DNA of 64,000 nucleotides from Zobellia amurskyensis. GTDB lineage: Bacteria > Bacteroidota > Bacteroidia > Flavobacteriales > Flavobacteriaceae. The translations under genes were made by a program, and so were the position numbers. Of the stretch, positions 6,740-57,613 are shown piece after piece. The notes below the pieces were generated by a model, which was not told the DNA's origin, did not search any database, and saw only the letters and a list, made by a program, of their open reading frames with translations. The stretch's first letter is position 1. Every line of letters starts with the position of its first letter. Location: contig NZ_RCNR01000021.1 of assembly GCF_009725985.1 (NCBI RefSeq), positions 1 through 64,000 of the forward strand. Reading direction: 5' to 3'.

Positions 6740-6851
6740 TTTCTGTTATTTATATTTTTATATCGAATAAAATTTTGGCAAAACCATCCCTTTGACAAAT
6801 CAGTTAAAACCGATTCCTCACATGATATTCGTTGATACTTAAAGTAAATTC

Positions 6852-8246
6852 CTAATAGGTAAAACCTAAATTATCGAGTCCGCGCTGCACATCTTCGTTT
6901 TGCATAAAGAGTTGCCATAACAATCCCGACCTATGGTTCTCAATCATTACTAAAATGGGACCTTGATCAATGGCCAAATACGCATCGGCTACCCAAAAAT
7001 CATATTGCGGACTAAAAGCATCATAAAAACCGGCAGGCCCTAAAAGCTGGTCCTTTTTACCATAGAAATACCGCAGTGCCTTCATGGATTCCTCCGGTGT
7101 ATATGGCATAGAGCTCAAAGCCGCTGTAGGTGAAATTACACCTGTATCATTGGACGGGCTATGGGCGTTATAGCCTAAACTTCCATCCGCATTTCTACTG
7201 TAACTGGCGGTAAGCCCCCAGCAATCTCCCCCATAATCTTTATAATTTTTAGGGTTATCCACGCAGTAGGCATAATTGATTTTTGCATGGTTTAGCGTAG
7301 CATCACCATAATTCACAAAGGCATCGGCCAAATTACTGGGATCTAGCCCCATATAGGAGTAGTGTGCCCAGAACAATGGCCCGCCTTTTTGGGAACTACC
7401 TGCATGATTAACAATAAGTGGAATTTCACAAGCCGAAGCGCCATTGTCTATAGCACCACTGGACGCCCAACCATTTTCATATGTTTCTTTGGTGATAGAA
7501 AAATCAGGGGAAGCCGATGCCATGACATAGGTTATCAATACTTCATTATATCCCTTTAATTCTAAATTGATGTCAAAACCAAAATCAGGACTCCAATGCC
7601 AATACAACGTATTTTTATTTTGCGTGAACCAGTCCCACTCTACGCCTTTCCAAAGTGCATCCGCTTTTTCGGCCACTGCTTTTTCTTCGGAACTACCCTC
7701 TTTTAAATATTCTTTTACGCAGATAAGCCCCTGCACCAAAAAGGAAGTTTCAACCAAATCAGCACCATTATCCTTTTCACTAAAGGGAAGCGTTTTCCCG
7801 TTACGCCCATCTAACCAATGGGGCCATGCGCCATGAAACCGATCAGCACTTTCCAAAAAAGAAATAATATTAGACAGTCTTTCAACACCTTCGCTACGGG
7901 ACACGAAACCTCTTTCCATAGCGACCAAAATTCCCATAAGACCAAAACCCGTGCCTCCAACAGTTACCGTATTAGGATCGTTGGATGGTTCTTGGGGATG
8001 ATACCTTTCACGTGCAGCACCCGATTCCGTTTGGGCAAAATTCCAAAAATATTTAAAGGTTTCTTTTTGGGTCAAGTCGAGAAGCTCCTCATCCGTCAGC
8101 TTCACTTCTTCCTCCTCTACTTCCTGTTCATTTTCTACCGGTGTTTCCGGAAGTTCGGAAACGCCGATTGCACCACCATCTGAATCATCCGAAGTACATG
8201 AAATGAACAGAAACGACACCAAAATTGAAACGAATAATTTACTCAT
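6852..8246 (-). CDS. GH144-type beta-1,2-glucanase (lipoprotein), copy 2
   Basis: A 464-residue protein of the glucoamylase-like (DUF3131-related) fold now classed as GH144, whose studied members hydrolyse beta-1,2-glucan or its oligosaccharides. The lipobox cysteine is C17, followed by a strongly acidic linker (residues about 30-50) that probably holds the enzyme off the membrane. Family landmarks are TVGGTGFGLMGILVAMERGF, YWHWSPDFGF, ISPTAALSSMPYTPE and AIDQGPILVMIENHRSG. Its ATG lies inside the end of the other GH144 gene (8 bp overlap), so the two are translationally coupled. The proteins align over their whole length but differ at many positions, so they probably have different chain-length or endo/exo preference. 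The catalytic acid cannot be assigned from the sequence alone. Confidence 0.82.
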   Translation of the reverse strand: MSKLFVSILVSFLFISCTSDDSDGGAIGVSELPETPVENEQEVEEEEVKLTDEELLDLTQKETFKYFWNFAQTESGAARERYHPQEPSNDPNTVTVGGTGFGLMGILVAMERGFVSRSEGVERLSNIISFLESADRFHGAWPHWLDGRNGKTLPFSEKDNGADLVETSFLVQGLICVKEYLKEGSSEEKAVAEKADALWKGVEWDWFTQNKNTLYWHWSPDFGFDINLELKGYNEVLITYVMASASPDFSITKETYENGWASSGAIDNGASACEIPLIVNHAGSSQKGGPLFWAHYSYMGLDPSNLADAFVNYGDATLNHAKINYAYCVDNPKNYKDYGGDCWGLTASYSRNADGSLGYNAHSPSNDTGVISPTAALSSMPYTPEESMKALRYFYGKKDQLLGPAGFYDAFSPQYDFWVADAYLAIDQGPILVMIENHRSGLLWQLFMQNEDVQRGLDNLGFTY

Positions 8247-42377: not shown

Positions 42378-43088
42378 TTATTTATTAAGTAAGTCCTCTA
42401 AATCCCCCAGACCAAAACAAGAAACTTTTTGAACCGAAGCAGATACACATAAGGCCGAACAATAGCCTTCTAAGTTCTCAAACGAAAACAGTTTCCAGCT
42501 ATCCTTTTCTTTAGAATCCCAATGTGTCCTTAAGAGTTTCGGATTATCATCAGTAATAGAAACCGAAAAGGAATTTAAATCAAAAGAGAGTCCAGCTCCC
42601 TTTGCCTTAATAAAGGCTTCTTTACGTGTCCAACAATTAAAAAAAGCCTTAGCTCTTTTCTCTTCCGGAAATACTAACAAAGACGAAGTTTCATCTGAAG
42701 AAAAGAAACCTTCCGCTATTTTAGCTATATCAAAATTGCTTTTGATACACTCCACGTCTACCCCTACTTCTCCTATGTCGGTAAAAGCTATTACAATGCT
42801 ATCGCCTGAATGGGAAAGGTTAAAGCGTAAGGGAGTGGAATGGGCATAATTTGGCTTTCCAAATTCACCATACTCAAAATCTACTTTAGCCGAGTCTCTT
42901 TTTAAATAGCGACCAGACAACACACGAAGAAGGCCTCTGGCCAGAGCATACACTTTTTTATCCTTTTCAAACTTAAACCTATTTCTTCGCTCCAATTCAT
43001 CTTGAGAAAGAAACTCCAAATAGTCAAGCTCGTGAAGTTCACTTGTCCTGAAAAACCATATATGTGCTTCATTTTCAAATAACTCCAT
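42378..43088 (-). CDS. 4'-phosphopantetheinyl transferase, Sfp type
   Basis: A protein of about 236 residues from ATG 43088, which clears the preceding NRPS stop by 10 bp; the ATG at 43124 would overlap it by 26 bp. It transfers phosphopantetheine from CoA to the serine of carrier proteins. Motifs: FNLSHSGDSIVIAF, the Mg2+ site VGVDVECI and FFNCWTRKEAFIKAKGAGLSF, all intact. It is the last gene of the hupE/ureJ-NRPS operon and should activate the PCP serines S1027 (NRPS 43099), S35 (stand-alone PCP) and S1333 (NRPS 50619). An 8-bp inverted repeat overlaps its stop and could act as a weak terminator. Confidence 0.93.
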   Translation of the reverse strand: MELFENEAHIWFFRTSELHELDYLEFLSQDELERRNRFKFEKDKKVYALARGLLRVLSGRYLKRDSAKVDFEYGEFGKPNYAHSTPLRFNLSHSGDSIVIAFTDIGEVGVDVECIKSNFDIAKIAEGFFSSDETSSLLVFPEEKRAKAFFNCWTRKEAFIKAKGAGLSFDLNSFSVSITDDNPKLLRTHWDSKEKDSWKLFSFENLEGYCSALCVSASVQKVSCFGLGDLEDLLNK

Positions 43089-43098
43089 AGGGTTCAAT

Positions 43099-46000
43099 TC
43101 AGCCTGTTTTCCTGCTTGTCTCAAATTTTTTCATACATGCATCTATACTAGCCGCTGTTTTCTTGGCAGTTAAAGCATCTTCAAAGAGTTTGTCATGATG
43201 ACCTTCCACGGAAACAGCAATAACCTGTTGATTCGTCATTTTCTCCCATGAAGCCACTACTTTTTCATTAAAATTTTCCTCTTTTTTATCGGTCAAAAGT
43301 AATTGAATAGCATTGCTTATCGGCCTCCATTTGTAATCCCTGTACAACTTAATATGATTATCGTGCAATTTGCGAACAAGCCGTTGACTACCACTACTTG
43401 TAAGCGTCTTATATTTTTCCCTGAAGGGGTAAACTAATTTTGCTTTAATAAACCGACGAATGGTTTGTACCGGGCTTTTTTTGAACCTCTCAACAAATGC
43501 GGTTGTACGCACTTTAGTTCGAGACGAAGCAAACAGACTGAGATAATCCGCCATAGTATCCGCAATGATAAGGTTGGCAGAATCGCTCATTTCGTTCAGC
43601 AATCTTGTAACCTCCATACCAATAGCCGTATTATAACAATAAGCCATAAAATGATACGGCCCATGCGGTTGTACTTTTTTTATTTCTTTTATAAAATCAA
43701 TAGCCATTTGATGAACACTTTTGTGCAAAATGAGCTCATCTTTATGACCCGATGCCTGAAGTGCATAAACTGGACGGTCAGAATTTAAATGATTTGCAAA
43801 CTGATTATAGTAAAAAAAGTGTGTTCCCCCCGAGTGCAGGCAAAATAAAGGAGGTTTTGTTCCTCCCGAACGAATAGCCACTAAATGCTTAAAATCTGAT
43901 GTATCAAAAGCTTTCGCTTTCTTTTGATATTCGGTTTCCAAATATCTGGTAAGCTGGGCAATGGTCTGATGCTCGAAAAGTTGATTGGGAGATACCTCCA
44001 ATTTTTCTGCTTTCGCCTTTGAAATTACTTGTATACTCAATATAGAATCTCCTCCTATATCAAAAAAATTCTCATGTAACCCTATTGAAGGTAGATGTAA
44101 GACTTCCTTCCAAATAGTGGCTATTTTTGTTTCAAGCTCTGTAGATGGATGTTCTATTTCCTTGATGGCGCTATGATTTACAGAGGGCTGGATACGAGAC
44201 AGACTTACTTTATCTACCTTACCATTGGGCAATAAAGGAAACTCAGCCGCTTCAATAATTCTAGACGGCACCATATATTCTGGCAATTTCGCTTTTAAGG
44301 CGCGTTTAAGCCCATTTTCCTCCACTACACCGTTGGTAGTAATGTAAGCCACCAAACGCTTGTTATCTTCTACCATAGCCACTGCAGCCGTCACTTTATC
44401 GTATTCGGATATGATTTTTTCCACCTCATCCAACTCAATCCTAAAACCGCGTACTTTAACTTGATGGTCTACCCTTCCCAAAAATTCAATAGTTCCGTTA
44501 TTCCGGTATCTGCCTAAATCACCCGTTCTGTAAATTGTAGCAGAGCCTACTTCCAACGGATTCTTTACAAACACCTTTTCGGTAAGGTCTGCTCTATTAA
44601 GATACCCCTTAGAAACTCCTGGGCCTCCTATATAAATTTCCCCAACTGCACCGTAGGGAACCATACGCTTAGCTTCGTTTAGAAGATACACCTCTGCATT
44701 AGCAACCGGTCTACCAATGGGCACATCTTCTAAGCTGTTACTCTTTTCTACCTTGTGTGCAAGACACCAAACTGTAGCTTCCGTAGGTCCATATTCATTG
44801 TACAAATGTACCGAAGGCAGTTTCTTATAATGGATTTCACCCAAAGAACGTGTACAGGCCTCACCTGCGACAATAACCGTATCCAAGCTCTCTAATTTTT
44901 CCAGATTCCCGTGTTCAAGCAAAACTTGATACAAAGAAGGTAGCATAAGCGTATGACTCACCTTATGTTTTTCAACTAGGTCCTCTATTCTCGTGAGGTC
45001 CTGTTCTATTCTATTTTCTGTTAGGATAAGATTGCCTCCTGTGCAGAGCGTCCAAAAAATTCCAGCTTTGGAACTATCGAACGAAATAGAGGACATCAAC
45101 AAAAAAGCACTAGGATTTTCCGGGTAGAAATCCAATCTCCCTGCTGTTGAATTGATAATGTTCTTATGGGTTATGGGTACACCTTTGGGTTTCCCCGTGC
45201 TTCCCGAGGTGTAAATAATATAGGCTAAATCATCTTCCTTTACTTCTGGTAAAACAACATCCAACTCTACATCAACATCAATTGTATCAACTAAAATGAC
45301 ATTCTTGTTGGTGCCATCAAAAACATTGGCCAGACTACTATGCGTCACTACGATATTACAATCGGCATCTGCCAAAATAAAATTTAACCTTTCCATGGGA
45401 TAATTGGGGTCCATGGGCAGATACGCACACCCAGCTTTAAGAACAGCCAATAAAGAAACAATCATTTCAACCGACCTATCCATACAAAGCATTAATATCT
45501 CATTTCGCTTATTTGTTTTCTGAAGAATGGTTTGGGCAATAATACCAGCTCGTCTATCCAGCTCACCATACGATAAACACACATCATTAAATGTCAAAGC
45601 GTTATGATTTTTAATTTGATGTGACACATTAGATATAATATCGTGGATTGCCTGAAAAGTTTTGAAATGATTTCTGCCCTCTACAACTTGGGGAAACAAT
45701 ACTTTTTTCTCCTCCGGAGTTACCATTGGTAGCTGACCAATAGGCTCATTTGGGTTTGCGATTACCCCCTTCAATAACATTTTATAATGCGATAAAAAGC
45801 GAGAAATCGTAGCAGATTCAAATAAGTCCGTATCATATTCGAAAGCCAAAGAGAGAGCTCCTTTTGACTCGGAGATAGACAGCGTTAAATCAAATTTGGA
45901 CACCTCGGTATCAAATTCAGTTTCATCTATCAATTTCAAATCAGGCCCAAAAGAAGGTGTAACCGTAGCCGAGTGGTACAAAAACATAACTTGAAAAAAA

Positions 46001-47124
46001 GGACTTACTGACAGAGATCGCTCAACTTTCAATTCTTTTACTAAAATATCAAAAGGCACCTCTTTGTTTGAAAAAGCCGAAAGCGTATTTGTTTTTACAG
46101 CTTCAACCAATTCAGAAAAACGACTTGAGCCTTCTATAGCACTCCTTAAAACCACTGTATTAATAAAGAACCCAAGCACTTTCTCCAGTGATTTTGAACT
46201 TCTATTCGCTATAGGCGTACCCACTAAAATATCAGACTGATCCGAGTACCTATACAAAAGAATGTAATACACGGTAAGCAGGAAAACAAAGGGTGTTGCG
46301 CCAAGTTGTTTTGATGTATTCAATATATCCAAAGACAACTCTTTATCCAGCGGCAAGGCTTGTTGCCTCCCCTTGAAAGAAGGTCTTGCCGGCCTCGTTC
46401 GGTCCGTTTGCAGATTTAAAATAGGTAAATCTCCCGATAACGACTTTTTCCAATAATCCAATTGTTTTTCATCAATTGGTATGTTTCGTTCCCAATACGC
46501 ATAATCCGAAAACTGAAGAGTGCCCTGTGGAATATCCAACGATTGTCCGGATAGTAATTTCAGGTACGTGTCCGCTAATTGCTGTTTTAGGACATCTATA
46601 GACCATTCATCAATAATGATATGATGCATAGTAAAGAACAGAAGCGTTCTATTGGCCGTGAGTTGAATCAACGACACCCTAACCAGGTCTGGAACGGACA
46701 AATCAAATACCTGTGAAGACTGTTGCCGCATGACCGCCTCTGCCTCGTTTCTGGCTTCCGATTCCGTTAAATGACTAAAATCGTATTCACTAAGTTTTGG
46801 GACACCCTCATAAATTCTGGTTATTGGACTGTCGTCAACAGTTGGGTAATACGACCTTAAAACCTCGTTAAGCAAGAATATATGGTTAAGGCTATCTTTT
46901 AAAAATTCAACTTTTAAATCCCCTTGAAAAGTAAGCGCTTCCGAATAATTATAAAACGGATTATCCCTATATAACTGTTGAAGAAACCAGATGCGCTGTT
47001 GCCCTGAGGATAAGGGTATCGTGGTGGCGATAGGAGCTTTGGGAATCTGCAGCAAAGCAGCCCCCTTTTCCTCACGATTCTTCCATCGGTTTAATAGCGA
47101 ATTATTTTTATTGCTTCTTTCCAA
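43099..47124 (-). CDS. Nonribosomal peptide synthetase, C-A-PCP-TE
   Basis: 1341 residues. Condensation (about 35-465; H167, H168 and D172 of HHxxxD are present but Glu follows instead of Gly), adenylation (about 480-985; TSGSTGKPKG near 639-648, NEYGPTEATVW, YRTGDLGRYR, PNGKVDK), carrier (S1027 in GGDSILS) and thioesterase (about 1085-1335). Reading the ten specificity positions by alignment to GrsA gives DSAMIAEVWK; only D, S, A, E, V agree with the published His code DSELTAEVCK, so I leave the substrate open. The thioesterase has C1163 in AYCYN where serine in GxSxG is usual, with H in EGHHDKL. As the TE-bearing protein it should make the last step of a short peptide. It lies 20 bp after hupE/ureJ. 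Confidence 0.93.
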   Translation of the reverse strand: MERSNKNNSLLNRWKNREEKGAALLQIPKAPIATTIPLSSGQQRIWFLQQLYRDNPFYNYSEALTFQGDLKVEFLKDSLNHIFLLNEVLRSYYPTVDDSPITRIYEGVPKLSEYDFSHLTESEARNEAEAVMRQQSSQVFDLSVPDLVRVSLIQLTANRTLLFFTMHHIIIDEWSIDVLKQQLADTYLKLLSGQSLDIPQGTLQFSDYAYWERNIPIDEKQLDYWKKSLSGDLPILNLQTDRTRPARPSFKGRQQALPLDKELSLDILNTSKQLGATPFVFLLTVYYILLYRYSDQSDILVGTPIANRSSKSLEKVLGFFINTVVLRSAIEGSSRFSELVEAVKTNTLSAFSNKEVPFDILVKELKVERSLSVSPFFQVMFLYHSATVTPSFGPDLKLIDETEFDTEVSKFDLTLSISESKGALSLAFEYDTDLFESATISRFLSHYKMLLKGVIANPNEPIGQLPMVTPEEKKVLFPQVVEGRNHFKTFQAIHDIISNVSHQIKNHNALTFNDVCLSYGELDRRAGIIAQTILQKTNKRNEILMLCMDRSVEMIVSLLAVLKAGCAYLPMDPNYPMERLNFILADADCNIVVTHSSLANVFDGTNKNVILVDTIDVDVELDVVLPEVKEDDLAYIIYTSGSTGKPKGVPITHKNIINSTAGRLDFYPENPSAFLLMSSISFDSSKAGIFWTLCTGGNLILTENRIEQDLTRIEDLVEKHKVSHTLMLPSLYQVLLEHGNLEKLESLDTVIVAGEACTRSLGEIHYKKLPSVHLYNEYGPTEATVWCLAHKVEKSNSLEDVPIGRPVANAEVYLLNEAKRMVPYGAVGEIYIGGPGVSKGYLNRADLTEKVFVKNPLEVGSATIYRTGDLGRYRNNGTIEFLGRVDHQVKVRGFRIELDEVEKIISEYDKVTAAVAMVEDNKRLVAYITTNGVVEENGLKRALKAKLPEYMVPSRIIEAAEFPLLPNGKVDKVSLSRIQPSVNHSAIKEIEHPSTELETKIATIWKEVLHLPSIGLHENFFDIGGDSILSIQVISKAKAEKLEVSPNQLFEHQTIAQLTRYLETEYQKKAKAFDTSDFKHLVAIRSGGTKPPLFCLHSGGTHFFYYNQFANHLNSDRPVYALQASGHKDELILHKSVHQMAIDFIKEIKKVQPHGPYHFMAYCYNTAIGMEVTRLLNEMSDSANLIIADTMADYLSLFASSRTKVRTTAFVERFKKSPVQTIRRFIKAKLVYPFREKYKTLTSSGSQRLVRKLHDNHIKLYRDYKWRPISNAIQLLLTDKKEENFNEKVVASWEKMTNQQVIAVSVEGHHDKLFEDALTAKKTAASIDACMKKFETSRKTG

Positions 47125-47144: not shown

Positions 47145-48404
47145 TTACTTCAAGCCAAAGAAATTCGCAATAGGATATAGTATGTTTCTATTAATTACTT
47201 CATCCAACGGCAAATCAATATCAAAGGCCCTTTCAGTGAGCCAATAAACAGATATAATTATCAAAAGAACAGAAAGCCAAAACATGAGTTTTACATATAA
47301 TCTATAATTTCTGATGAAATATAGAACTGGAAAAATTAATGCTATAATTGCAATTTGACCTAACTCTACCCCCACGTTGAACCCAACCAATGACAACGAG
47401 AGATATTCGCCCTTAAAACCTAAATCCCCTAAGACACTAGCAAAACCAAACCCATGAAAAAGGCCGAACACAAAAGCAATAACCCAATCTTCTCCTTTAA
47501 ATATTGGTCTAATATTATGATAGGCAGCAAGGCCAACGGAAAACGCGATAATAGATTCCACGACCCTAGATGGCAATGTTATAATTTCTAGAGATGCCAA
47601 ACTTAAGGTTATGGTATGGGCAATGGTAAAAAAAGTAACGATTTTAAGGATATACATAAAAGCAGGCCTAAAACTCTTTACTGGCTCCCAGCTCCAAAGA
47701 ACAGGCTTATTGGTATGAATAGCTTCGCCTGTAACCCCTTCCTTTTTACGCCTTCTTACTACGGATGGTAAAATCAAAGCCAATAGGAATAAGATGTGAT
47801 CCATTCCAATCCAGATGTGCCATACACCTTGTTGCACCATTGCTAAAAAACCCTTCCATAGTGAAGTTTCTTTTATGGAAAATGTACCATTTCTTTCCCC
47901 TTCGGACAAATATAAAGCTACAATATGCTCATTATTAATTAGTCCCGCCTTCCAATTGTACTCCATTGCCACAAGACACATATGTGATGGGTCTTCATCA
48001 AAAAAAGCGTTATAATCCAGCGTTAGGCTATCTGGTAAATTTTCTGAATTTTCCAATCGGAAATGAAAGTTGATAAAATCTCCATAAGACAAGTTCAGCT
48101 TTGTTATCTCCCCTGTAAAAATAATTTTATAGTCCGCTAGTTCCGAAGAAAATTTAGCATTTTCAAATAGGTACGCCTGTATTCTTTCTTGGTACGGCCT
48201 TACTTGTTCTATACCTGGGTGCAACCCTAAATCCAGACCAAAAACACTATTAAGTTCATGGGCATTGACCTCAAAACGACCTTCTATTCCGGTCTTCTCA
48301 TAAATCCTAAGGTATATTAAACTCTGTTTAGGTTGGTGGCCAAACGTTAGTATTGGCAATAGCAGAAATAGGCCAAAGATTAATGGCAATAGTAGTTTTT
48401 TCAT
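47145..48404 (-). CDS. HupE/UreJ-family membrane protein
   Basis: 419 residues: signal peptide, a soluble domain of about 190 residues, then the membrane part with the family motifs HIWIGMDHILFLLALILPS, FTIAHTITLSLASL and FGLFHGFGFASVLGDLGF, where conserved His and Asp line the segments, and further helices to the C-terminus. HupE/UreJ proteins are linked to nickel/cobalt uptake in other bacteria; the metal here is unknown. It is the first gene of the minus-strand operon with the TE-bearing NRPS and the phosphopantetheinyl transferase, divergent from the second NRPS operon. Its position inside a peptide cluster suggests it moves a metal linked to the product. Confidence 0.85.
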   Translation of the reverse strand: MKKLLLPLIFGLFLLLPILTFGHQPKQSLIYLRIYEKTGIEGRFEVNAHELNSVFGLDLGLHPGIEQVRPYQERIQAYLFENAKFSSELADYKIIFTGEITKLNLSYGDFINFHFRLENSENLPDSLTLDYNAFFDEDPSHMCLVAMEYNWKAGLINNEHIVALYLSEGERNGTFSIKETSLWKGFLAMVQQGVWHIWIGMDHILFLLALILPSVVRRRKKEGVTGEAIHTNKPVLWSWEPVKSFRPAFMYILKIVTFFTIAHTITLSLASLEIITLPSRVVESIIAFSVGLAAYHNIRPIFKGEDWVIAFVFGLFHGFGFASVLGDLGFKGEYLSLSLVGFNVGVELGQIAIIALIFPVLYFIRNYRLYVKLMFWLSVLLIIISVYWLTERAFDIDLPLDEVINRNILYPIANFFGLK

Positions 48405-48778
48405 AGCGTTCTCAAGATAGAAAATTATTTTTTAGTCTGGTTATTATTCTCGATTTCAAAAATCGTGGTTTGTTTTAAGTAAATAATAAGGTATATAAAA
48501 CCCTTCTTTTTATGAACCCTCCAAAGTCCTTTAAAGCAAATTCCCCCCTATTTATTTTAATGCTAAATAAACCCGAAAACATTCGCCAATATCAATTTAA
48601 TTTAAAAAACACTCGTCCAAAGTCATAATTTTTCGATGATCGACGTGTAAATCGGTTATTGGATTATTTTTTGTTTCGATAAGCTCCAAATCATCATTTA
48701 ACTTAGCCTTGCTATGAATCAGAAGATTTCAATACTGTTTGAAGTCCTCATGGTTTGTGGTATGATATCAACTAAACC
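48405..48778. promoter_or_regulatory. Divergent promoter region of the NRPS/metal cluster
   Basis: These 374 bp hold no gene. They must contain the start signals for both operons. I see two small dyads: CGATTT-CAA-AAATCG at 48451-48465 and TTTATTT-TAATGCT-AAATAAA at 48551-48571. The second is AT-rich with a 7-base spacer and could be an operator for a metal regulator of Fur, Zur or similar type, but it does not closely match any consensus I can quote. No exact TAnnTTTG box is found on either strand. Confidence 0.35.
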
Positions 48779-50362
48779 GTGAATTTGAAATCAACTTATA
48801 TACTACCACAGCTTTTGGAAAGCGTGGCAAATGCATCACCGCAAAGTGAAGCATTTCGCTACTTGGAAGAAACTATTTCTTATAGTGACCTTCACAGGAA
48901 AACAGAGCAATTAGCGTCTTACCTTATCTCTTTAGGTATTAATAAAGGTGACCGTATTGGTATTTATATGAACAGGTGTTTGGAAACCTGTATTGCAGTA
49001 TACGGCATCCTTAAAGCCGGGGCAGCTTATGTTCCCCTAGACCCCTTTACTCCTATTAACCGGACACATGCCATCATAAACGACTGTGGAATTACCTGTT
49101 TGGTAACAACTCCTACTAAAAGAAGAAAAATAGATAACCTGTTGAACGAACAAAATTCCATAAAAACGATTATTGGTGATACAATTAGAAACACAACCGA
49201 ATCTATCTCATGGGAGACTATTTTCTCGGTTTCAACGGACAACTTTGAAGCTCCCAATATTTTAGAGCAAGATTTAGCATTCATACTTTACACTTCTGGT
49301 TCCACAGGAGTTCCAAAAGGCATTATGCATACACACTACAGTGCCTTGAGTTTAGCTAAAATTGCCGCTGATACTTACGGTTTTACCTCCGATGATATTT
49401 TCGGGAATCCTGCTCCGCTTCATTTTGACCCTTCTACCTTCGGGTATTTTGTGGCTCCATTAGTAGGCGCCACAACAGTTATTATTCCTGACGCGCATCT
49501 AAAAATGCCCGCAAGCCTAAGTGCTCTTATCGCAAAAGAAAAAATTACGGTTTGGTATTCTGTACCCCTCATGTTGATTCAACTCTTAAATAGTGGTACT
49601 TTAAGTAAAAACGACTTCAGTTCTTTAAGATGGGTACTTTTTGCCGGTGAGGTTTTTATCACTAAACACCTTAGAGCGCTCATGAACCAATGGCCTCACG
49701 CCAAATTCAGTAATCTATACGGTCCGGCCGAACTCATTCTATGCACCTATTACCATCTACCAGAGCCTCCTAAAACCGATGACCCTATTCCCATTGGTAA
49801 TGTTTGGAGTAATACCGAATTTAAAATACTTGATGAGAACAATAACGACGTAAACCCTAATGAACCTGGCCAGTTAGCAGTACGCTCTGCAACTATGATG
49901 CAAGGATACTGGAACAACAAATTGCTTACGGAACGGTCTTTTCATAAAGTAACCATAGCGGAAGGATACGACCATACCTATTATAAGACCGGTGATTTGG
50001 TAAAACTTAACCCTAAAGGAGAATTACTGTTTTTAGGCAGAAACGATAGACAGATTAAACTTAGAGGATATCGCGTTGAGCTAGACGAAATAGAACTCAC
50101 ATTATTAAGATATAAGGATGTTGAAGAAGTAGCTGTGTTGGTGTTAGGAAAAGAAGAAGAGGTGCAAGAACTGGCCGCTGTAGTAAGACCTGCTAAAGAT
50201 GCGTGTATAAACCTTACCTATCTCATGGAATTCTGCAAAGTAGAACTCCCCTCCTATGCTGTTCCAAAAACCATAGAATTTATGGATGATTTTCCAAGAA
50301 CCAGTTCCGGAAAAATAAGCCGAAAAGAAATAGGTAAATTATTGGAAGAAAACCAAATATGA
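48779..50362 (+). CDS. Stand-alone adenylation enzyme, proline-like code
   Basis: 527 residues from GTG 48779; the nearest ATG is out of frame. A free-standing adenylation domain that should activate an amino acid and load it on the separate carrier protein next to it. Motifs: LYTSGSTGVPKG (T172 at the start of TSG), HFDPSTFGY, NLYGPAEL (Ala where most have Thr), YYKTGDLVKL, LRGYRVELDEIE, RTSSGKISRK. Specificity positions read by alignment to GrsA: DPFYLALLCK; the published code of stand-alone prolyl ligases of the PltF/RedM type is DLLYLALVCK, seven matches. This suggests proline or a close ring analogue. It overlaps the carrier gene by 4 bp. Confidence 0.88.
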   Translation: MNLKSTYILPQLLESVANASPQSEAFRYLEETISYSDLHRKTEQLASYLISLGINKGDRIGIYMNRCLETCIAVYGILKAGAAYVPLDPFTPINRTHAIINDCGITCLVTTPTKRRKIDNLLNEQNSIKTIIGDTIRNTTESISWETIFSVSTDNFEAPNILEQDLAFILYTSGSTGVPKGIMHTHYSALSLAKIAADTYGFTSDDIFGNPAPLHFDPSTFGYFVAPLVGATTVIIPDAHLKMPASLSALIAKEKITVWYSVPLMLIQLLNSGTLSKNDFSSLRWVLFAGEVFITKHLRALMNQWPHAKFSNLYGPAELILCTYYHLPEPPKTDDPIPIGNVWSNTEFKILDENNNDVNPNEPGQLAVRSATMMQGYWNNKLLTERSFHKVTIAEGYDHTYYKTGDLVKLNPKGELLFLGRNDRQIKLRGYRVELDEIELTLLRYKDVEEVAVLVLGKEEEVQELAAVVRPAKDACINLTYLMEFCKVELPSYAVPKTIEFMDDFPRTSSGKISRKEIGKLLEENQI

Positions 50363-50613
50363 AAGAGAAGATAGTATCATATATTAAGAACAAACTGGTT
50401 ACCGAATCTATTGAAACAATAAACATTCATGAAGACCTCCTAGGCTCAGGGCTTGTTGACTCTATCGGCATGGTACAATTGGTTCTATTTATTGAAACCG
50501 AAGCAGGGATAAAAGTCTCTCCAGAAGAAATGACCATTGAGAATTTTATGACCATAAATCATATGTTAAGATTTATAGCTAGCAAACAAAATACGGATAC
50601 GAAGCAAATTTAA
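50359..50613 (+). CDS. Stand-alone peptidyl carrier protein
   Basis: 84 residues, four-helix carrier. The phosphopantetheine attachment site is S35 in GSGLVDSIGMVQL. It starts inside the stop of the adenylation gene (ATGA overlap) and ends 5 bp before the next NRPS. It should accept the amino acid activated by the adenylation enzyme and hand it to the condensation domain of the NRPS at 50619, as in prolyl-carrier systems. No dehydrogenase that would oxidise a prolyl group to pyrrole is in the window. Confidence 0.92.
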   Translation: MKEKIVSYIKNKLVTESIETINIHEDLLGSGLVDSIGMVQLVLFIETEAGIKVSPEEMTIENFMTINHMLRFIASKQNTDTKQI

Positions 50614-50618
50614 GTACA

Positions 50619-53600
50619 ATGAACGATCAAAAAGATGCACTCCTACCACTTACAAAAAGTCAGTCTGCACTTTGGGCCGGTCAGCGAATGCATCCAAATG
50701 TTCCACTTCATAATGTGGTATATACTTTTGAAATAAATGGCGAAATAGATAAAATTCTATTCGAAAAGGCATTTCAAAAACTTATCAATGCGACAGATAT
50801 ACTTCGGATGGTCTTTTCCGAAGAAAAAGGAATTCCAGTACAGAAAGTTCTTGACAAAGTTGATTTTTCCTTGGAATTTGTGGACTTCATGAACAGCAAT
50901 GATAACGTAGCTGTTGAAAAATGGCTTCACCAAAGTACATTGCGGCTCATGGACCTTTCCAATAGTGTATTCCATACCGCTCTATTAAAAACAGGTCCTA
51001 ATAACTATATTTGGTTTTTAAAGCTTCACCATTTGGTAACGGATGCCGTATCCAATTCGATTCTTTATAATCGGATGAATTCCTTTTACAAAAACGAATT
51101 GGAAAAGGTAACGGTCCCATTAGAAAATTTCCCGTCATTTTCAGATTATATAAAATATGAAAATGACCAGAGCACAACACCTTCTGGTTCCAATAGCGAA
51201 AATTATTGGATAGATAAAACAAAAGATATATTAGAGCAACCTCAATTTTATGGGGAAAAGCTTAAGAAGAGTACAGAGGCCAGGCGCACTTCTATTGAGC
51301 TTGGTGGCGAACGCTCTCAGAAGTTACGGAATTTAGCAAAACAACCTGAGTTTAGGGGATGGACGGAAGACCTGACGCTTTTCAACATATTTCTCACATT
51401 ATACTCCACTTATATTCACAGGGTAAGCGGCCAGAATAAAATTGTGATCGGTGCTCCGGCACACAATCGCCCTACTAGGGATTTTCAAAAAACCGCTGGC
51501 CTTTTTATCGAAGTTCTTCCTTTAGTAATCGAAATTGAAGACAGTGATACGTTCATCAGTCTATTTAACCGGGTTAAGGTAGAGACCAATTCATATTTAC
51601 GAAATGCAAGCCCAGGAAGTGCAACGCCCCAGACCAATAGTAGTTTTAATACCATTTTAAACTACATACACGCAGATTTCCCTGATTTTAATAGCTTCCC
51701 CACAAAAACGGAATGGCTGCATTCCGACCATATGGACAGTAATCATGCGCTCCGCACCCACGTCTATGACATGAACAAGAGCGGTACGTTCAAAATGGCT
51801 TTTGACACAAATTGCCTCACTTTTTCAAAAGCTACCGCGGAAGAAATGCCCAATCATTTTCTGAACATCCTAGACGGTTTTTTAGAGAATTTTGAGCAAT
51901 CCATATTTAAGCCCGCACTACTACCGGCTGCATCTTTAAAATCTAACAGTGAAGATATATCATCTACACAATTTCAGTCTATTTTAAGTAGCTTTCAACA
52001 TAATCAGGAACAGCATCCAAATTCCGTTTCGCTACAAGCGGGGAATGAAATTCTCACCTATAGCTCATTAAACAAAAAGGCCAATCAACTGGCTCATTAT
52101 TTAACAAGTAAAGGTGTTAATGAGCAAACTAGAGTGGCTCTTCATTTTTATAGAAGTACTGATTACATTATTAGCGTACTTGCCGTTCTAAAAACTGGTG
52201 CTGCATTCATTCCCATAGCTTCGGACCAACCTTCGGAACGAATTAAATACATCATTTCAAATTCGCAGAGTGCTTTTTTACTTAGTCAAAGTGAACTTAT
52301 TTCAAAAATCGATATACCAGGTATTGGTATTCTAGATATACAAAAGGAACGTTCAATTATTAAAGAACAACCTGACACCGATATTGAAATACAAAACGAT
52401 CCCAAAAGTTTAGCATATATACTTTATACTTCTGGGAGCACAGGTAAACCGAAGGGAGTCTTGATTTCACATGAAGCGTTGTCCAATTATATTTTCTGGG
52501 CAAAGGAAGCTTATAACGTCAATCAAAAATCGGTTTTTCCGTTTTTTACCTCAATAGGGTTTGATTTGACCATTACCTCCACCCTCTTACCTTTGGTTAG
52601 TGGAGGAAGAATCAATATCTATAAAGAACCCACTACCGAGCCGGACGTAAGTCTGTTGAAAGTTATAGATGATAATCTGGTAAATTGTATCAAGCTTACC
52701 CCTTCCCATCTGTCCCTTTTAAAAGACAAAAAACTAGAAACCTCCTATATACATACCATGATTGTTGGTGGTGAGGAATTGAAATTGAACTTAGCCAAAA
52801 CAGTACAGGCTGCATTTCCTTCGGAATTAAAAATTTATAACGAATATGGCCCTACGGAAGCTACCGTAGGCTGTATTGTTTCAAGATACAACCAAGATAA
52901 ACACACGAAGAGCTCAGTGCCAATAGGTCTTCCTATTTCAAACATGAACGCCTATATTTTGGATACCTATAAAAATCAGGTCCCCAATGGTGTTGTTGGT
53001 GAGCTCTATTTAAGCGGTGCTGGATTATCTAACGGATATGCCAATGCCCCTAGCATGACGGCCGAAAAGTTTGAGGAAAACCCTTTTTCACCTGAAACTA
53101 AAATGTACAAGACTGGAGATTTGGGCAGGGTGAATAAAAATGGGGAGTTTGAATATATTGGTCGCCTGGATGAACAAGTAAAACTTAGAGGATACCGTAT
53201 AGAACTTGCAGATATAGAAAGTAACCTCCTTGATGTTCCTGAAATAACTAACTGTGCCGTAGTATTAGTTGAGAACAAGGAAATTACTCCGGAAGATGAA
53301 GTGGTGAACTGTACAACATGTGGACTACCTTCTAACTACCCAAATGCAGATTTTAATGAGGATGGGGTTTGTCATTTATGTACCGCGTTCGAAACCTATA
53401 AAGACAAGACCGAACGCTATTTTAAAAATGATGAGCAGTTGGTTTCGCTCTTAACATCAAAAAGAGGTCAAAACCGCAGTTATGATTGCATTTCACTTTT
53501 AAGTGGCGGAAAAGACAGCACCTATGTTCTTGCTCGGCTAGTTAATATGGGGCTCAAGGTTCTAGCTTTCACCATGGATAACGGCTACATTTCCGAACAG

Positions 53601-54758
53601 GCAAAAGCAAATGTTGACCGTATTGTAAAAAAGTTGGGCGTAGACCACATCTATGGACAAACACCCCATATGAACGAAATATTTGTAGATAGTCTTAACC
53701 AACACCACAACGTTTGCAATGGGTGCTTTAAGACCATTTATACCCTGAGTACCAAAATAGCACTTGAGAAACAAATTCCATTTATAGTTACCGGTTTAAG
53801 TCGTGGTCAGTTTTTCGAAACCCGACTTACCGAAGAACTTTTTTGGGACGACGAACTGGATATCTCCAAAATTGACGACACCATTTTAGAGGCAAGAAAA
53901 CTATATCACCAAGAATCCGATGCTGTAAAGCGACTTTTAGATGTATCCATTTTTGAAGACGAAAGCGTTTTTGAAAAAGTAGAATTTGTAGATTTCTATA
54001 GATTTAGTGATGTCAGCTTAGAAGATATGTTGATATACCTAAAGGAGAAAGCGGGTTGGATAAGGCCTACGGATACCGGTAGGTCTACAAACTGCCTCAT
54101 TAACCAAGTTGGCATATATGTCCATAAAAAGGATTTAGGGTATAGCAATTACTCTTTTCCATATAGTTGGGATGTGCGATTAGGCCATAAAACCAGAGAT
54201 GAAAGCCTTGAGGAAATCAACGAAGTAATTGATGAGAAGGAGGTTTTGCGAATTATGGAGGAAATTGGGTACAACCCTTCACAACCGGAATGGGAAAGCA
54301 ACTCCAAATTAGTTGCTTATTATACGGGTGAAAAAGACATATCCATAAAAAATTTACAAAATTTATTGACCCAGCAGCTTCCTTCATATATGCTTCCATC
54401 TGTGTATAAACACTTGGACGAAATGCCATTGACCTCCAACGGAAAAGTTGATAAGAAAAGTTTAAAAAACCTATCGGCAGTACAACTGGCCATGGAAACG
54501 TCATACACGGCTCCAAGAAATGAAATAGAAGAACTACTGGAGAATATTTGGGCCGAAGTCTTGAAATTGAACAAAGTTGGCGTACATGACAATTTTATTT
54601 CCTTGGGCGGCCATTCATTAGCGGCAATACGTGTTACCGCCCGTATTAACGAGGAAATTGAATATAATTTCTCGCTAAATAAAATATTTGAAATGCCTAC
54701 TATTGCAGAATATTCAACCTATATAGAAGAAACCTTAACATCTCTTCTAGAAAAATAA
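50619..54758 (+). CDS. NRPS, C-A-PCP with a zinc-ribbon/PP-loop ATPase inserted in the A domain
   Basis: 1379 residues. Condensation (about 8-430; H137, H138, D142, Ala replacing Gly). Adenylation N-terminal part (about 455-880; TSGSTGKPKG from T604, FDLTITS, NEYGPTEATVG, A8 LRGYRIELADIE). Then about 330 extra residues, roughly 893-1226: a four-Cys ribbon (C898, C901, C918, C921), a PP-loop SGGKDS at 962-967, CxxC at C1033/C1036 and a later C1159. The adenylation C-terminal part resumes near SKLVAYYTG (about 1229) with LPSYMLPS and K1276 in SNGKVDKK. Carrier serine is S1333 in GGHSLAAIR. Specificity positions read DLTKIGEVGK, one change from the Asn code DLTKLGEVGK. The frame is unbroken, so it is not a fusion artefact of annotation. 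Function of the insert is inferred in the findings. Confidence 0.93.
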   Translation: MNDQKDALLPLTKSQSALWAGQRMHPNVPLHNVVYTFEINGEIDKILFEKAFQKLINATDILRMVFSEEKGIPVQKVLDKVDFSLEFVDFMNSNDNVAVEKWLHQSTLRLMDLSNSVFHTALLKTGPNNYIWFLKLHHLVTDAVSNSILYNRMNSFYKNELEKVTVPLENFPSFSDYIKYENDQSTTPSGSNSENYWIDKTKDILEQPQFYGEKLKKSTEARRTSIELGGERSQKLRNLAKQPEFRGWTEDLTLFNIFLTLYSTYIHRVSGQNKIVIGAPAHNRPTRDFQKTAGLFIEVLPLVIEIEDSDTFISLFNRVKVETNSYLRNASPGSATPQTNSSFNTILNYIHADFPDFNSFPTKTEWLHSDHMDSNHALRTHVYDMNKSGTFKMAFDTNCLTFSKATAEEMPNHFLNILDGFLENFEQSIFKPALLPAASLKSNSEDISSTQFQSILSSFQHNQEQHPNSVSLQAGNEILTYSSLNKKANQLAHYLTSKGVNEQTRVALHFYRSTDYIISVLAVLKTGAAFIPIASDQPSERIKYIISNSQSAFLLSQSELISKIDIPGIGILDIQKERSIIKEQPDTDIEIQNDPKSLAYILYTSGSTGKPKGVLISHEALSNYIFWAKEAYNVNQKSVFPFFTSIGFDLTITSTLLPLVSGGRINIYKEPTTEPDVSLLKVIDDNLVNCIKLTPSHLSLLKDKKLETSYIHTMIVGGEELKLNLAKTVQAAFPSELKIYNEYGPTEATVGCIVSRYNQDKHTKSSVPIGLPISNMNAYILDTYKNQVPNGVVGELYLSGAGLSNGYANAPSMTAEKFEENPFSPETKMYKTGDLGRVNKNGEFEYIGRLDEQVKLRGYRIELADIESNLLDVPEITNCAVVLVENKEITPEDEVVNCTTCGLPSNYPNADFNEDGVCHLCTAFETYKDKTERYFKNDEQLVSLLTSKRGQNRSYDCISLLSGGKDSTYVLARLVNMGLKVLAFTMDNGYISEQAKANVDRIVKKLGVDHIYGQTPHMNEIFVDSLNQHHNVCNGCFKTIYTLSTKIALEKQIPFIVTGLSRGQFFETRLTEELFWDDELDISKIDDTILEARKLYHQESDAVKRLLDVSIFEDESVFEKVEFVDFYRFSDVSLEDMLIYLKEKAGWIRPTDTGRSTNCLINQVGIYVHKKDLGYSNYSFPYSWDVRLGHKTRDESLEEINEVIDEKEVLRIMEEIGYNPSQPEWESNSKLVAYYTGEKDISIKNLQNLLTQQLPSYMLPSVYKHLDEMPLTSNGKVDKKSLKNLSAVQLAMETSYTAPRNEIEELLENIWAEVLKLNKVGVHDNFISLGGHSLAAIRVTARINEEIEYNFSLNKIFEMPTIAEYSTYIEETLTSLLEK
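53301..54296 (+). other. Inserted zinc-ribbon plus PP-loop ATPase domain (part of the NRPS)
   Basis: The segment opens with CTTCGLPSNYPNADFNEDG and CHLC, the same pattern as the N-terminus of WbpG/PseA N-acetyl-sugar amidotransferases (CTRC, then FDE/NGVC, then C). SGGKDS is the ATP-pyrophosphatase loop of the adenine-nucleotide alpha hydrolase superfamily (TtcA, TilS, LarE, WbpG). Its CxxC pair and later single Cys match the three [4Fe-4S] ligands described for TtcA/TtuA thiolases. It sits between A8 and A9, where methyltransferase insertions are known in other interrupted A domains. Boundaries are estimated. Confidence 0.85.
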
Positions 54759-54793: not shown

Positions 54794-55276
54794 ATGCAGA
54801 GCAAAAAAGAAAATTTTAGCCGTTCAACAAAGCCAACGCTTATAAAATATGTAGCGTTGATAATCGCTTTGTGCTATGTTATAAATCCATTGCATCAAAA
54901 AATAAGCACTGTTTTTCATGAAGTTTCTCACGTTTTGGAAATGCCTGATTCGGTAATTGGCCATGACTACTCCATTCATGAAAATAATACCCACTATACT
55001 CATCATCATACTGATGTTGATAGGCATGAGCATAATTTTATTAATATAATTGACGCCATTTTTGATGCTTCCGGCACCAATAAATCTCAAGAAGGCTCAC
55101 GCTTAGCAGATTTTAAGTTTGATAAGCATATTACTACGACCTGTCCGGAGTTTCATCTCATCCCAGCGGTAAGATCTTTAGAAAATTTCAAATCCATAGA
55201 AAGCAACCTAAAGCTAGGTCATTTTACCATTTTAGAAGAACCTCCACAACAAACCAACCTCCCCATTTCCTGTTAA
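54794..55276 (+). CDS. Membrane-anchored His-rich protein
   Basis: 160 residues. A single N-terminal hydrophobic segment (YVALIIALCYVI, 19-30) should anchor or export it. Residues 42-80 hold eleven His, including HYTHHHTDVDRHEH, a likely metal-binding stretch; the rest has no recognisable fold. It lies 35 bp after the NRPS and before the TonB receptor on the same strand. No family is recognised. Given its neighbours, a periplasmic metal-binding role is the best inference; the metal is unknown. Confidence 0.7.
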   Translation: MQSKKENFSRSTKPTLIKYVALIIALCYVINPLHQKISTVFHEVSHVLEMPDSVIGHDYSIHENNTHYTHHHTDVDRHEHNFINIIDAIFDASGTNKSQEGSRLADFKFDKHITTTCPEFHLIPAVRSLENFKSIESNLKLGHFTILEEPPQQTNLPISC

Positions 55277-55381
55277 GGTTTATTGCCTACGTTTTAATTT
55301 TTTGATTTAGCATCAAGCTATGCCTATACATTTCTATGGGTTATATGCTTGTATGTTCAATATACTTATAATCTTTTTATA

Positions 55382-57613
55382 ATGAAAAAACATATAACTC
55401 TTATAGTACTGTTAGCTTTTGGCTTGGTTGTCCATGCCCACGACCTTAGCGGTACGGTAACGAACGAAAAACAAATCGCCCTAGAAGGCGTTGGTGTCTA
55501 TAACAAAACTACTGGTGGATATACGTACACCAATGTTTCCGGTTATTTTGAACTAGATGATATATCCGTTGGGGATGTTATCTATTTCTATAGCCTAGGT
55601 TATAAAAACCATCAACTAACCATTTCAGAGCAACTTTTAGACGGAAAAACAAATATCACTTTAATAGAGTCTGCGGTTTCCTTGGACCAAGTGGTACTTG
55701 TATCAAAAGTAAATGCCTTGAGCAATTTTGTAAATGTTGATGTTAAAGCAAGTCCGGTAAAGTCTTCACAAGAAATTCTACGAAAAGTACCTGGGTTGAT
55801 CATTGGCCAACATGCCGGAGGTGGAAAAGCAGAGCAAATTTTCTTAAGAGGATTTGATATTGACCACGGAACGGATTTAGCCATTAATGTGGATGGTCTG
55901 CCTGTAAATATGGTTTCACACGCTCACGGACAAGGGTATTCGGATATGCACTTTATAATCCCTGAAACCATTGATAATATTGACTTTGGAAAAGGTCCTT
56001 ATTATGCAAACAAAGGGAATTTTAATACTGCAGGTTACATCGATCTAAAAACAAAACGCAAACTAGACAACAATTTGATTTCAGCAGAAATCGGTCAGTT
56101 TAACACCTTGCGTACCGTAGGTATGTTCAAAGTGGCCGAAAGCGATTTTAGCAATGCATATTTGGCGTCTGAGCTAGTTTTGACGGATGGTCCTTTTGAT
56201 TCTTCCCAAAATTTCAATCGTCTTAATATTATGGGTAGATATACTTTTAATAATCGTAAAGACCAAGATTTGAGCATTACACTTTCTCATTTTCAGAGCA
56301 AGTGGGATGCTTCCGGTCAGGTGCCACAAAGAGCTATTGATGCCGGATTGATTGGCAGATTTGGCGCAATTGACGATACCGAAGGTGGTAATACAAGCCG
56401 AAGCAATATTCTTCTTAACCACACCAAGCAACTAGATGAGCATTCTAGGGTAAAATCCAAAGCGTATTTAACCAAATATGATTTTGAACTCTTTTCCAAT
56501 TTCACCTTTTTCTTGGAAGACCCCGTAAACGGTGACCAAATAAGACAATTTGAAGATCGAACCATAATTGGCGCGGAAACCAGTTACGTACACTCCGTTC
56601 ATGTTGGGGACCACGATTCACAATTAAAATATGAATCTGGAATTGGTTTTAGATATGATGATGTTAATGATGTCCAATTATCACGAACAAAAAACCGTCA
56701 AACCCTACTGGAGCGTTTGGCCTACGGCGATGTTGATGAATTAAATGCCTACGGATTCTTTGATGTGACATACAAAAAAAACAAATGGACCTTAAACACT
56801 GGTCTAAGATTAGACTATTTTAAGTTTGACTATGTAAACAACCTTACCAAAACCTATGATAGTAAAAGTGAAAACAAACTTTTTCTAGGTCCAAAATTTA
56901 ATGTCATCTATGCGCCGACTTCCAATTTGCAGCTTTTTGCTAAATCTGGTATAGGCTACCATTCAAATGATACCAGAGTGGTAACTGCGAACAACGGCAA
57001 AGAAATTCTACCCCTAGCCTATGGAGCGGATTTAGGAGCAATTTATAAACCTATGGACAAATTGGTTATTAATGCCGCTCTGTGGACCTTGTTTTTAGAA
57101 CAAGAATTTGTATATGTTGGGGATGCCGGTATAGTGGAACCAAGTGGGGAAACTAAAAGACTTGGAGTAGATTTTGGTTTACGCTACCAAATAACCGACT
57201 GGCTCTATGCCAATGGAGACGTTAACTACACCTACGCCAGAAGTACGGAAGACCCAGATGGGCAAGACCTTATTCCACTTGCGCCAGATTTGACTTCTTC
57301 AGCGGGGTTATCATTTATTGATATCAAGAATTTCTCTGGTGGAATTAACTACAAATATGTAAAAGATAGACCGGCAAATGAGGACAACTCCATTGTAGCC
57401 GAAGGTTATTTTGTAACTGATTTAAATTTGAACTATTCCATAAAGAATTGGACATTGGGCGTTATAATAGAAAACCTCTTTGATACGAAGTGGAACGAAA
57501 CCCAATTTGCAACGGAAAGCAGATTGTTTAATGAAACGACACCTGTTGAAGAAATTCACTTTACTCCGGGTATTCCATTCTACCTAAGAGGAAAAATAGC
57601 TGTTAATTTTTAG
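55382..57613 (+). CDS. TonB-dependent receptor of the NRPS/metal cluster
   Basis: 743 residues from ATG 55382; the in-frame TTG 33 bp upstream is not needed and would spoil the signal peptide. After the signal peptide come a carboxypeptidase-regulatory-like domain (about 22-95), a likely TonB box (SLDQVVLVSKV), the plug (about 118-230) with LRGFDIDHGTDLAINVDGLP and the unusual His-rich VSHAHGQGYSDMHF (179-191), then the barrel ending in KIAVNF with a terminal Phe. It is not SusC-like (no SusC signature, shorter). It should import the metal complex made by the cluster, or a metal directly. Confidence 0.9.
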   Translation: MKKHITLIVLLAFGLVVHAHDLSGTVTNEKQIALEGVGVYNKTTGGYTYTNVSGYFELDDISVGDVIYFYSLGYKNHQLTISEQLLDGKTNITLIESAVSLDQVVLVSKVNALSNFVNVDVKASPVKSSQEILRKVPGLIIGQHAGGGKAEQIFLRGFDIDHGTDLAINVDGLPVNMVSHAHGQGYSDMHFIIPETIDNIDFGKGPYYANKGNFNTAGYIDLKTKRKLDNNLISAEIGQFNTLRTVGMFKVAESDFSNAYLASELVLTDGPFDSSQNFNRLNIMGRYTFNNRKDQDLSITLSHFQSKWDASGQVPQRAIDAGLIGRFGAIDDTEGGNTSRSNILLNHTKQLDEHSRVKSKAYLTKYDFELFSNFTFFLEDPVNGDQIRQFEDRTIIGAETSYVHSVHVGDHDSQLKYESGIGFRYDDVNDVQLSRTKNRQTLLERLAYGDVDELNAYGFFDVTYKKNKWTLNTGLRLDYFKFDYVNNLTKTYDSKSENKLFLGPKFNVIYAPTSNLQLFAKSGIGYHSNDTRVVTANNGKEILPLAYGADLGAIYKPMDKLVINAALWTLFLEQEFVYVGDAGIVEPSGETKRLGVDFGLRYQITDWLYANGDVNYTYARSTEDPDGQDLIPLAPDLTSSAGLSFIDIKNFSGGINYKYVKDRPANEDNSIVAEGYFVTDLNLNYSIKNWTLGVIIENLFDTKWNETQFATESRLFNETTPVEEIHFTPGIPFYLRGKIAVNF

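Follow-up and report, generated by a model that had tools for sequence, protein, structure and literature searches.

A probable AMDH domain of the zinc-ribbon PP-loop type interrupts an asparagine-type adenylation domain in a nonribosomal peptide synthetase of Zobellia amurskyensis

What might a PP-loop ATPase be doing inside an adenylation domain that it splits in two? The question is raised by a nonribosomal peptide synthetase (NRPS) gene of Zobellia amurskyensis, found in a window of 64,000 nucleotides (positions 1 to 64,000, forward strand, of contig NZ_RCNR01000021.1, assembly GCF_009725985.1). The gene is a single uninterrupted frame (50619..54758, + strand) encoding 1379 amino acids (aa), in which about 330 residues break the adenylation (A) domain between motifs A8 and A9, the domain resuming before A9 and A10. 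An initial annotation had described the insert as a zinc ribbon and PP-loop (AANH) ATPase in an Asn-type A domain, proposed that it thiolates or amidates Asn bound to the carrier, and knew of no NRPS of this build that had been described. On this last point it was wrong. The fusion itself is not new, since the domain, named AMDH (aminomutase/amide dehydratase), is already carried by two proteins, CysH in the cystobactamid pathway and AlbIV in the albicidin pathway, and the same fusion had therefore been both described and characterised (PMC7966384, PMC8949500). We consider it probable that the Zobellia insert is an AMDH domain and a homolog of its namesakes in CysH and AlbIV, which would make a nitrile from carrier-bound Asn by way of PP-loop activation.

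The described anatomy was borne out by the reading frame, Pfam and motifs. Pfam searches of the module protein matched Condensation at residues 9-438, AMP-binding at 459-807, QueC at 957-1030 (28 bits, cut-off 22) and PP-binding at 1306-1369, with AMP-binding_C at 1230-1276 marginally below its cut-off (24.1 against 24.5 bits). Ahead of the insert are HHLVTD (residue 137), A3 (603), A5 (741), A7 (830) and A8 (848); within it are C898/C901, C918/C921, SGGKDS (962), C1033/C1036 and C1159; and beyond it are A10 (NGKVDK, 1274) and LGGHS (1329), together with an A9-like LPSYMLP at about residue 1254 that was read from the translation. The insert was placed between A8 and A9 because A8 precedes it and the A9-like stretch and A10 follow. 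The protein thus shows the make-up of an interrupted A domain, with A3, A5, A7, A8 and A10 all present around a catalytic insert, and its A core resembles A domains already known. At the specificity positions the code is DLTKIGEVGK, and the pattern DLTK..GE..GK is of the Asn type. Predicted structures of the insert alone (predicted local distance difference test score, pLDDT, 88.0; predicted template modelling score, pTM, 0.88) and of the 846-aa A domain with its insert (pLDDT 84.2; pTM 0.61, relative placement unsure) indicate that both folds are predicted to be intact. The insert was also considered as a broken remnant, which was rejected on the basis of the full motif set, the single open frame and the confident predicted fold.

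The activity of such a domain has been studied in CysH. In vitro, loaded Asn (+114) was converted to a +96 species when the AMDH domain was present, corresponding to dehydration to beta-cyanoalanine (-18 Da), and loading alone was seen without the domain; in vivo, AMDH deletion abolished both the iso-Asn and the cyanoalanine products (PMC7966384). The authors reported AMDH host A domains to be Asn-specific and described a dark brown protein, no CxxCxxxC motif, no structural template and, in 2021, a mechanism that was unknown (PMC7966384). The AMDH domains of AlbIV and CysH are reported to share 69% identity (PMC7966384), and a review presents AlbIV as an Asn-activating A-T protein and proposed cyanoalanine maker, with a 342-aa AANH-like SGGKD stretch placed between A and carrier (T) domains (PMC8949500). 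CysH (A-AMDH-A-T) resembles the window module in having its insert inside an Asn-specific A domain and in its SGGKD motif, and AlbIV, as described there, shares the Asn activation and the AANH-like SGGKD stretch. Both are stand-alone modules, CysH being a loading module accompanied by the hydroxylase CysJ and the shuttle CysB, whereas the window module is in-line (condensation domain first, C-A[AMDH]-T), has no hydroxylase found with it and belongs to a flavobacterium. By kinship with CysH, the annotation was probably right that the insert acts on carrier-bound Asn; thiolation or amidation is unlikely, since the outcome seen with the reconstituted relative is loss of water (-18 Da) or isomerisation of Asn.

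The kinship between the window and AMDH was drawn through a Corallococcus contig (L031) and not through the CysH sequence itself. This contig encodes radical SAM-B12, AurF, LCM methyltransferase, MbtH and alpha/beta hydrolase proteins as well as aminodeoxychorismate-synthase-like and Methyltransf_2 proteins, an A[AMDH]-T protein, TauD and then the start of a C-A protein. Because it thus carries much of the published cystobactamid gene set, its A[AMDH]-T protein appears to be CysH-like by content and order. No homologs of CysC or CysL were found among the scanned open reading frames (10 and the methyltransferase); the contig has further frames, among them two of 461 and 471 aa and a 1984-aa NRPS. 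The L031 insert is 49-50% identical to that of the window with all eight Cys and SGGKDS kept, and the range for L030 and L031 together is 49-51%. In the openly licensed literature, no fusion of an N-acetyl sugar amidotransferase with a nonribosomal peptide synthetase was found under those names, and no later paper on the AMDH mechanism was found by title.

A scan of the collection returned 34 loci. Those in Bacteroidota include Zobellia, Pareuzebyella, Gelidibacter, Pricia, Euzebyella, Pseudozobellia, Robiginitalea, further flavobacteria and other Bacteroidota, and the remainder are from Bradyrhizobium, Microvirga, Mesorhizobium, Gemmatimonadota, Acidobacteriota and Myxococcota. For counting, the partial locus L033 was dropped and the window added (33 loci plus the window). 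All 34 have the identical insertion site, an Asn-type code of the form DL(T/S)K(I/L)GE(V/I)GK, SGGKDS at residues 962-967 (numbering of the window module) and all eight Cys of the insert. In each of the 33 other loci whose A domain is full, the insert is nearer to its window counterpart than the host A core is, the median difference being 20 points. Both this result and the WbuX/TIGR03573 match given below show that the observation is not due to chance. Among 395 Bacteroidota genomes, 62 matched the insert profile, only 2 of them at the level of the AMDH clade (E below 1e-160), with a gap to the other 60 (best E 1.2e-28). The fused form was found in 12 of 60 relatives (E 3e-179 or better), 7 of these in the genus of the window, where 7 of 9 genomes (the window genome included) have it and 2 do not. 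The idea that the fusion is unique to this genome was rejected on the 34 loci and 12 relatives; its distribution is patchy, given the 2 carriers among 395 genomes and the 2 genomes of the genus without it. In a tree of the 34 inserts and 3 stand-alone sequences, support was 100/100 for a group of all inserts and 100/99 for the window grouping with Zobellia, but long-branch warnings were raised and no conclusion was drawn.

Searched alone, the insert matched WbuX/TIGR03573, the N-acetyl sugar amidotransferase (NASAT) family, with an E value of 3.4e-39 and 135.3 bits, below the curated family cut-off of 203.2. The NASAT tetracysteine motif CxxC..[GN]xCxxC (defined in PMC10607449), with SGGxDS, is present as CTTC...GVCHLC and SGGKDS. 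The initial annotation was right about the zinc ribbon and the PP-loop ATPase. NASAT/WbuX (8wex) is both the best profile and the best fold match of the insert, sharing the tetracysteine motif and PP-loop, but its members are stand-alone proteins that act on sugar acetamides. QueC and the nitrile synthetase ArtA (function per PDB title) also share the PP-loop fold, and an ATP-dependent nitrile route has been proposed for preQ0, but they form separate families. Given the resemblance to the acetamidine-forming N-acetyl sugar amidotransferases, ammonia could be imagined to attack an AMP-imidate and yield an Asn amidine. We hold this to be very improbable, as the insert falls short of the family cut-off, the AMDH clade is set off from the other matching Bacteroidota genomes by the gap in E values given above, and the activity of the one characterised clade member is dehydration or isomerisation. 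Of 18 weaker loci, 10 passed the motif filter and were aligned; these are stand-alone sugar-amidotransferase-like proteins, and some of the matches in the 395 genomes come from frames of 609-680 aa. Unlike the insert, 7 of the 10 lack a CxxC...C triad and read SGGVDS (L042, L043, L044, L047, L049, L050 and L054), and the other 3 (L040, L048 and L051) combine SGGKDS with CxxC...C.

The C1033/C1036/C1159 triad of the insert resembles in its pattern the three-Cys [4Fe-4S] site of LarE (PMC9283937) and the cluster residues C154/C157/C284 of CtaC (PMC6772006), so that, as a comparison of patterns, a PP-loop and a three-Cys site of the CtaC type are both present. LarE, TtuA, NcsA and CtaC are [4Fe-4S] PP-loop sulfur transferases that share the fold and the CxxC...C pattern with the insert, and CtaC likewise acts on carrier-bound peptides (PMC6772006); however, they add sulfur, whereas the studied AMDH domain removes water or isomerises. 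By their ligand pattern, the conserved Cys of the insert suggest an iron-sulfur site, and a [4Fe-4S] cluster could account for the brown colour noted in the CysH study. No proposal of an Fe-S cluster for AMDH was found in the openly licensed literature. For the Zobellia copy, sulfur transfer is conceivable because the triad resembles that of sulfur-transferring PP-loop enzymes. In a thioamide synthetase like CtaC, which acts on closthioamide precursors, a non-core sulfide of the Fe-S cluster would attack the AMP-activated side-chain amide to leave carrier-bound thio-asparagine, and such an outcome would come back into consideration if the cluster were found to carry sulfide. It is nonetheless regarded as improbable. 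The reconstituted relative CysH gave -18 Da, with cyanoalanine and iso-Asn products in a heterologous host; the available text on CysH mentions no thioamide, although it names no sulfur donor in the assay, which was thus no specific test of sulfur transfer (PMC7966384). No sulfur-mobilising family was matched among the 24 scanned window proteins.

In the preferred reading, nitrile formation by an AMDH domain, the host A domain would load L-Asn onto the adjacent T domain, and the PP-loop domain would adenylate the side-chain amide oxygen of the carrier-bound Asn to give an AMP-imidate. Elimination of AMP would then produce beta-cyano-L-alanine, perhaps with some iso-asparagine, after which the C domain would couple this residue to whatever the upstream carrier bears; the C-A-T-thioesterase (TE) protein would likely add a third residue and release a tripeptide. 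An AMP-imidate elimination of this kind has been proposed in a preprint for the ATP-dependent nitrile synthetases of preQ0, auranthine and PesC (PMC13060819). In CysH, the hydroxylase CysJ directs AMDH towards isomerisation in vivo (PMC7966384), and elimination to the nitrile is expected here because no CysJ-type hydroxylase was found beside the module; none of the 24 scanned window proteins matched TauD or PhyH. This bears equally on aminomutase as the main activity, with beta-linked iso-asparagine being formed and used by the downstream C domain. The CysH domain does form iso-Asn, even without CysJ, but in that situation the iso-Asn/Asn linker ratio dropped six- to eightfold and a substantial cyanoalanine product appeared (PMC7966384), and we regard isomerisation as the main activity in Zobellia as improbable. 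In one Cytophagales locus (L034), a PhyH-type oxygenase (6261-7016) adjoins the AMDH module and is a possible stand-in for CysJ. Our own evidence consists of anatomy, homology, conservation and synteny, the Asn loading and the domain-dependent dehydration and isomerisation being CysH data of others; we infer that the reaction runs through an AMP-imidate, that C1033/C1036/C1159 hold a [4Fe-4S] cluster, that this copy forms the nitrile, that the modules act in the order proposed and that the role is connected with metals.

Table 1. Coordinates in the window of the interrupted module, its parts and the neighbouring genes (A[AMDH], A domain containing the insert)
Feature	Position	Strand	Basis
NRPS module C-A[AMDH]-A-T, 1379 aa	50619..54758	+	ORF (open reading frame), Pfam, motifs
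Condensation domain (HHLVTD)	50643..51932	+	Pfam, motif
Adenylation core to A8, Asn-type code DLTKIGEVGK, A10 Lys beyond insert	51993..53282	+	Pfam, code positions
Probable AMDH insert, zinc-ribbon PP-loop (AANH) domain, residues ~893-1226	53295..54296	+	Profiles, alignment, fold
Tetracysteine zinc ribbon C898, C901, C918, C921	53310..53381	+	Invariant 34/34; NASAT-like motif
PP-loop SGGKDS, residues 962-967	53502..53519	+	Motif, alignment
CxxC C1033/C1036, two of three proposed Fe-S ligands	53715..53726	+	Alignment
C1159, third proposed Fe-S ligand	54093..54095	+	Alignment
Adenylation C-terminal subdomain to A10 Lys1276	54306..54446	+	Pfam, code positions
Carrier (T) domain LGGHS	54534..54725	+	Pfam, motif
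4'-Phosphopantetheinyl transferase	42378..43124	-	Pfam
NRPS C-A-T-TE, code DSALIAEVWK, likely terminal module	43099..47124	-	Pfam, code alignment
HupE/UreJ_2 family membrane protein	47145..48404	-	Pfam, syntenic
Stand-alone A enzyme, code DPFYLALL-K (gap at position 331)	48779..50362	+	Pfam, code alignment
Stand-alone carrier protein	50359..50613	+	Pfam, profile, motif
Small protein, His-rich stretch, no Pfam family	54794..55276	+	Pfam, clustering
TonB-dependent receptor	55349..57613	+	Pfam, clustering

The surrounding genes are shared among related loci. By clustering, HupE/UreJ and TonB genes flank the module in 18 of 18 (L001-L017 and the window), and all except L017, which has neither, also possess the stand-alone A gene and the gene of the small His-rich protein. 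The likely order is stand-alone A enzyme and carrier, then the AMDH module, then C-A-T-TE, which would give a cyanoalanine tripeptide. Across 19 sequences including the window, the starter code reads DPFY(L/F)ALL in 10, DQFFRGSR in 5 and otherwise in 4; the first residue therefore likely varies between loci while the Asn module is constant. The gapped position 331 of the window enzyme may be Cys, by our own reading of the sequence. In the interval that separates the HupE/UreJ gene from the stand-alone A gene, the stretch TTTTTCGATGATCGAC (with a copy like it at window 48629-48644) recurs with at most 3 mismatches in 11 of the 18 loci, against a best of 4 of 18 in a control with one shuffle. 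Shared ancestry may suffice to explain this, because the loci are related; the stretch is a possible regulator site, and no regulator was matched to it. Two further observations concern the thioesterase of the 43099-47124 NRPS, which has AYCYN at the GxSxG position and perhaps a Cys nucleophile, and the region at 2814-35351, where sulfatases, GH3, GH88-like and pectate-lyase-like proteins and a TonB receptor make up a polysaccharide-use region.

Together, the TonB, HupE/UreJ and His-rich proteins suggest a role in metal uptake. The TonB receptor gave weak matches to BtuB, PirA and the colicin I receptor (E 1.8e-5 to 6e-4), which name no substrate, and nothing on this Zobellia cluster was found by title or start of abstract in the openly licensed literature. 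A more far-reaching proposal, offered tentatively and unlikely to hold in full, is that AMDH domains are [4Fe-4S] zinc-ribbon PP-loop enzymes in which the open iron would bind the activated Asn amide and lead to nitrile formation or amine migration, the in-line version of marine flavobacteria making a nitrile tripeptide for metal uptake through TonB and HupE. If true, this would give the LarE/TtuA/CtaC-type cluster a job that does not involve sulfur.

Other AMDH clusters are built differently. In seven rhizobial loci (L018, L020-L024 and L032), a small gene set surrounds an A[AMDH]-T protein without a C domain; an acyl-CoA dehydrogenase and a phosphopantetheinyl-transferase-like open reading frame both occur in 7 of 7, whereas 6 of 7 have a TubC-docking thioesterase, by clustering except for the dehydrogenase and thioesterase of L021, which were called by Pfam (open reading frame calling is crude in high-GC loci). 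Such loci might produce just one modified Asn. DNA of this set is 93.8-94.3% identical over 5.3-6.4 kb between L018 (6586-12918) and L021 and between L018 (7511-12841) and L022, although L018 is a Mesorhizobium metagenome-assembled genome and L021 and L022 are Bradyrhizobium genomes of a different family, which would reflect either recent horizontal transfer or a mis-binned contig. Three Bacteroidota loci, but not the window, also have an acyl-CoA dehydrogenase gene upstream of their stand-alone A gene: L014 (4343-5494, by Pfam), L028 (3679-4848) and L034 (3543-4688, both by clustering). Combined with a DLLYLALVCK-like code, the type of PltF-like proline enzymes, it hints at a proline-to-pyrrole starter in some loci.

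What remains of interest is the metal site proposed here, together with the clusters of flavobacteria and rhizobia that are still uncharacterised. The AMDH domain, whose mechanism was called unknown in 2021, is here placed in a specific branch of the PP-loop superfamily with a proposed metal site, and nitrile formation from asparagine is thereby open to a direct mechanistic test. The finding also draws attention to a cluster that marine flavobacteria conserve and that is uncharacterised, and to small clusters of rhizobia that likely make nitrile or iso-asparagine products.

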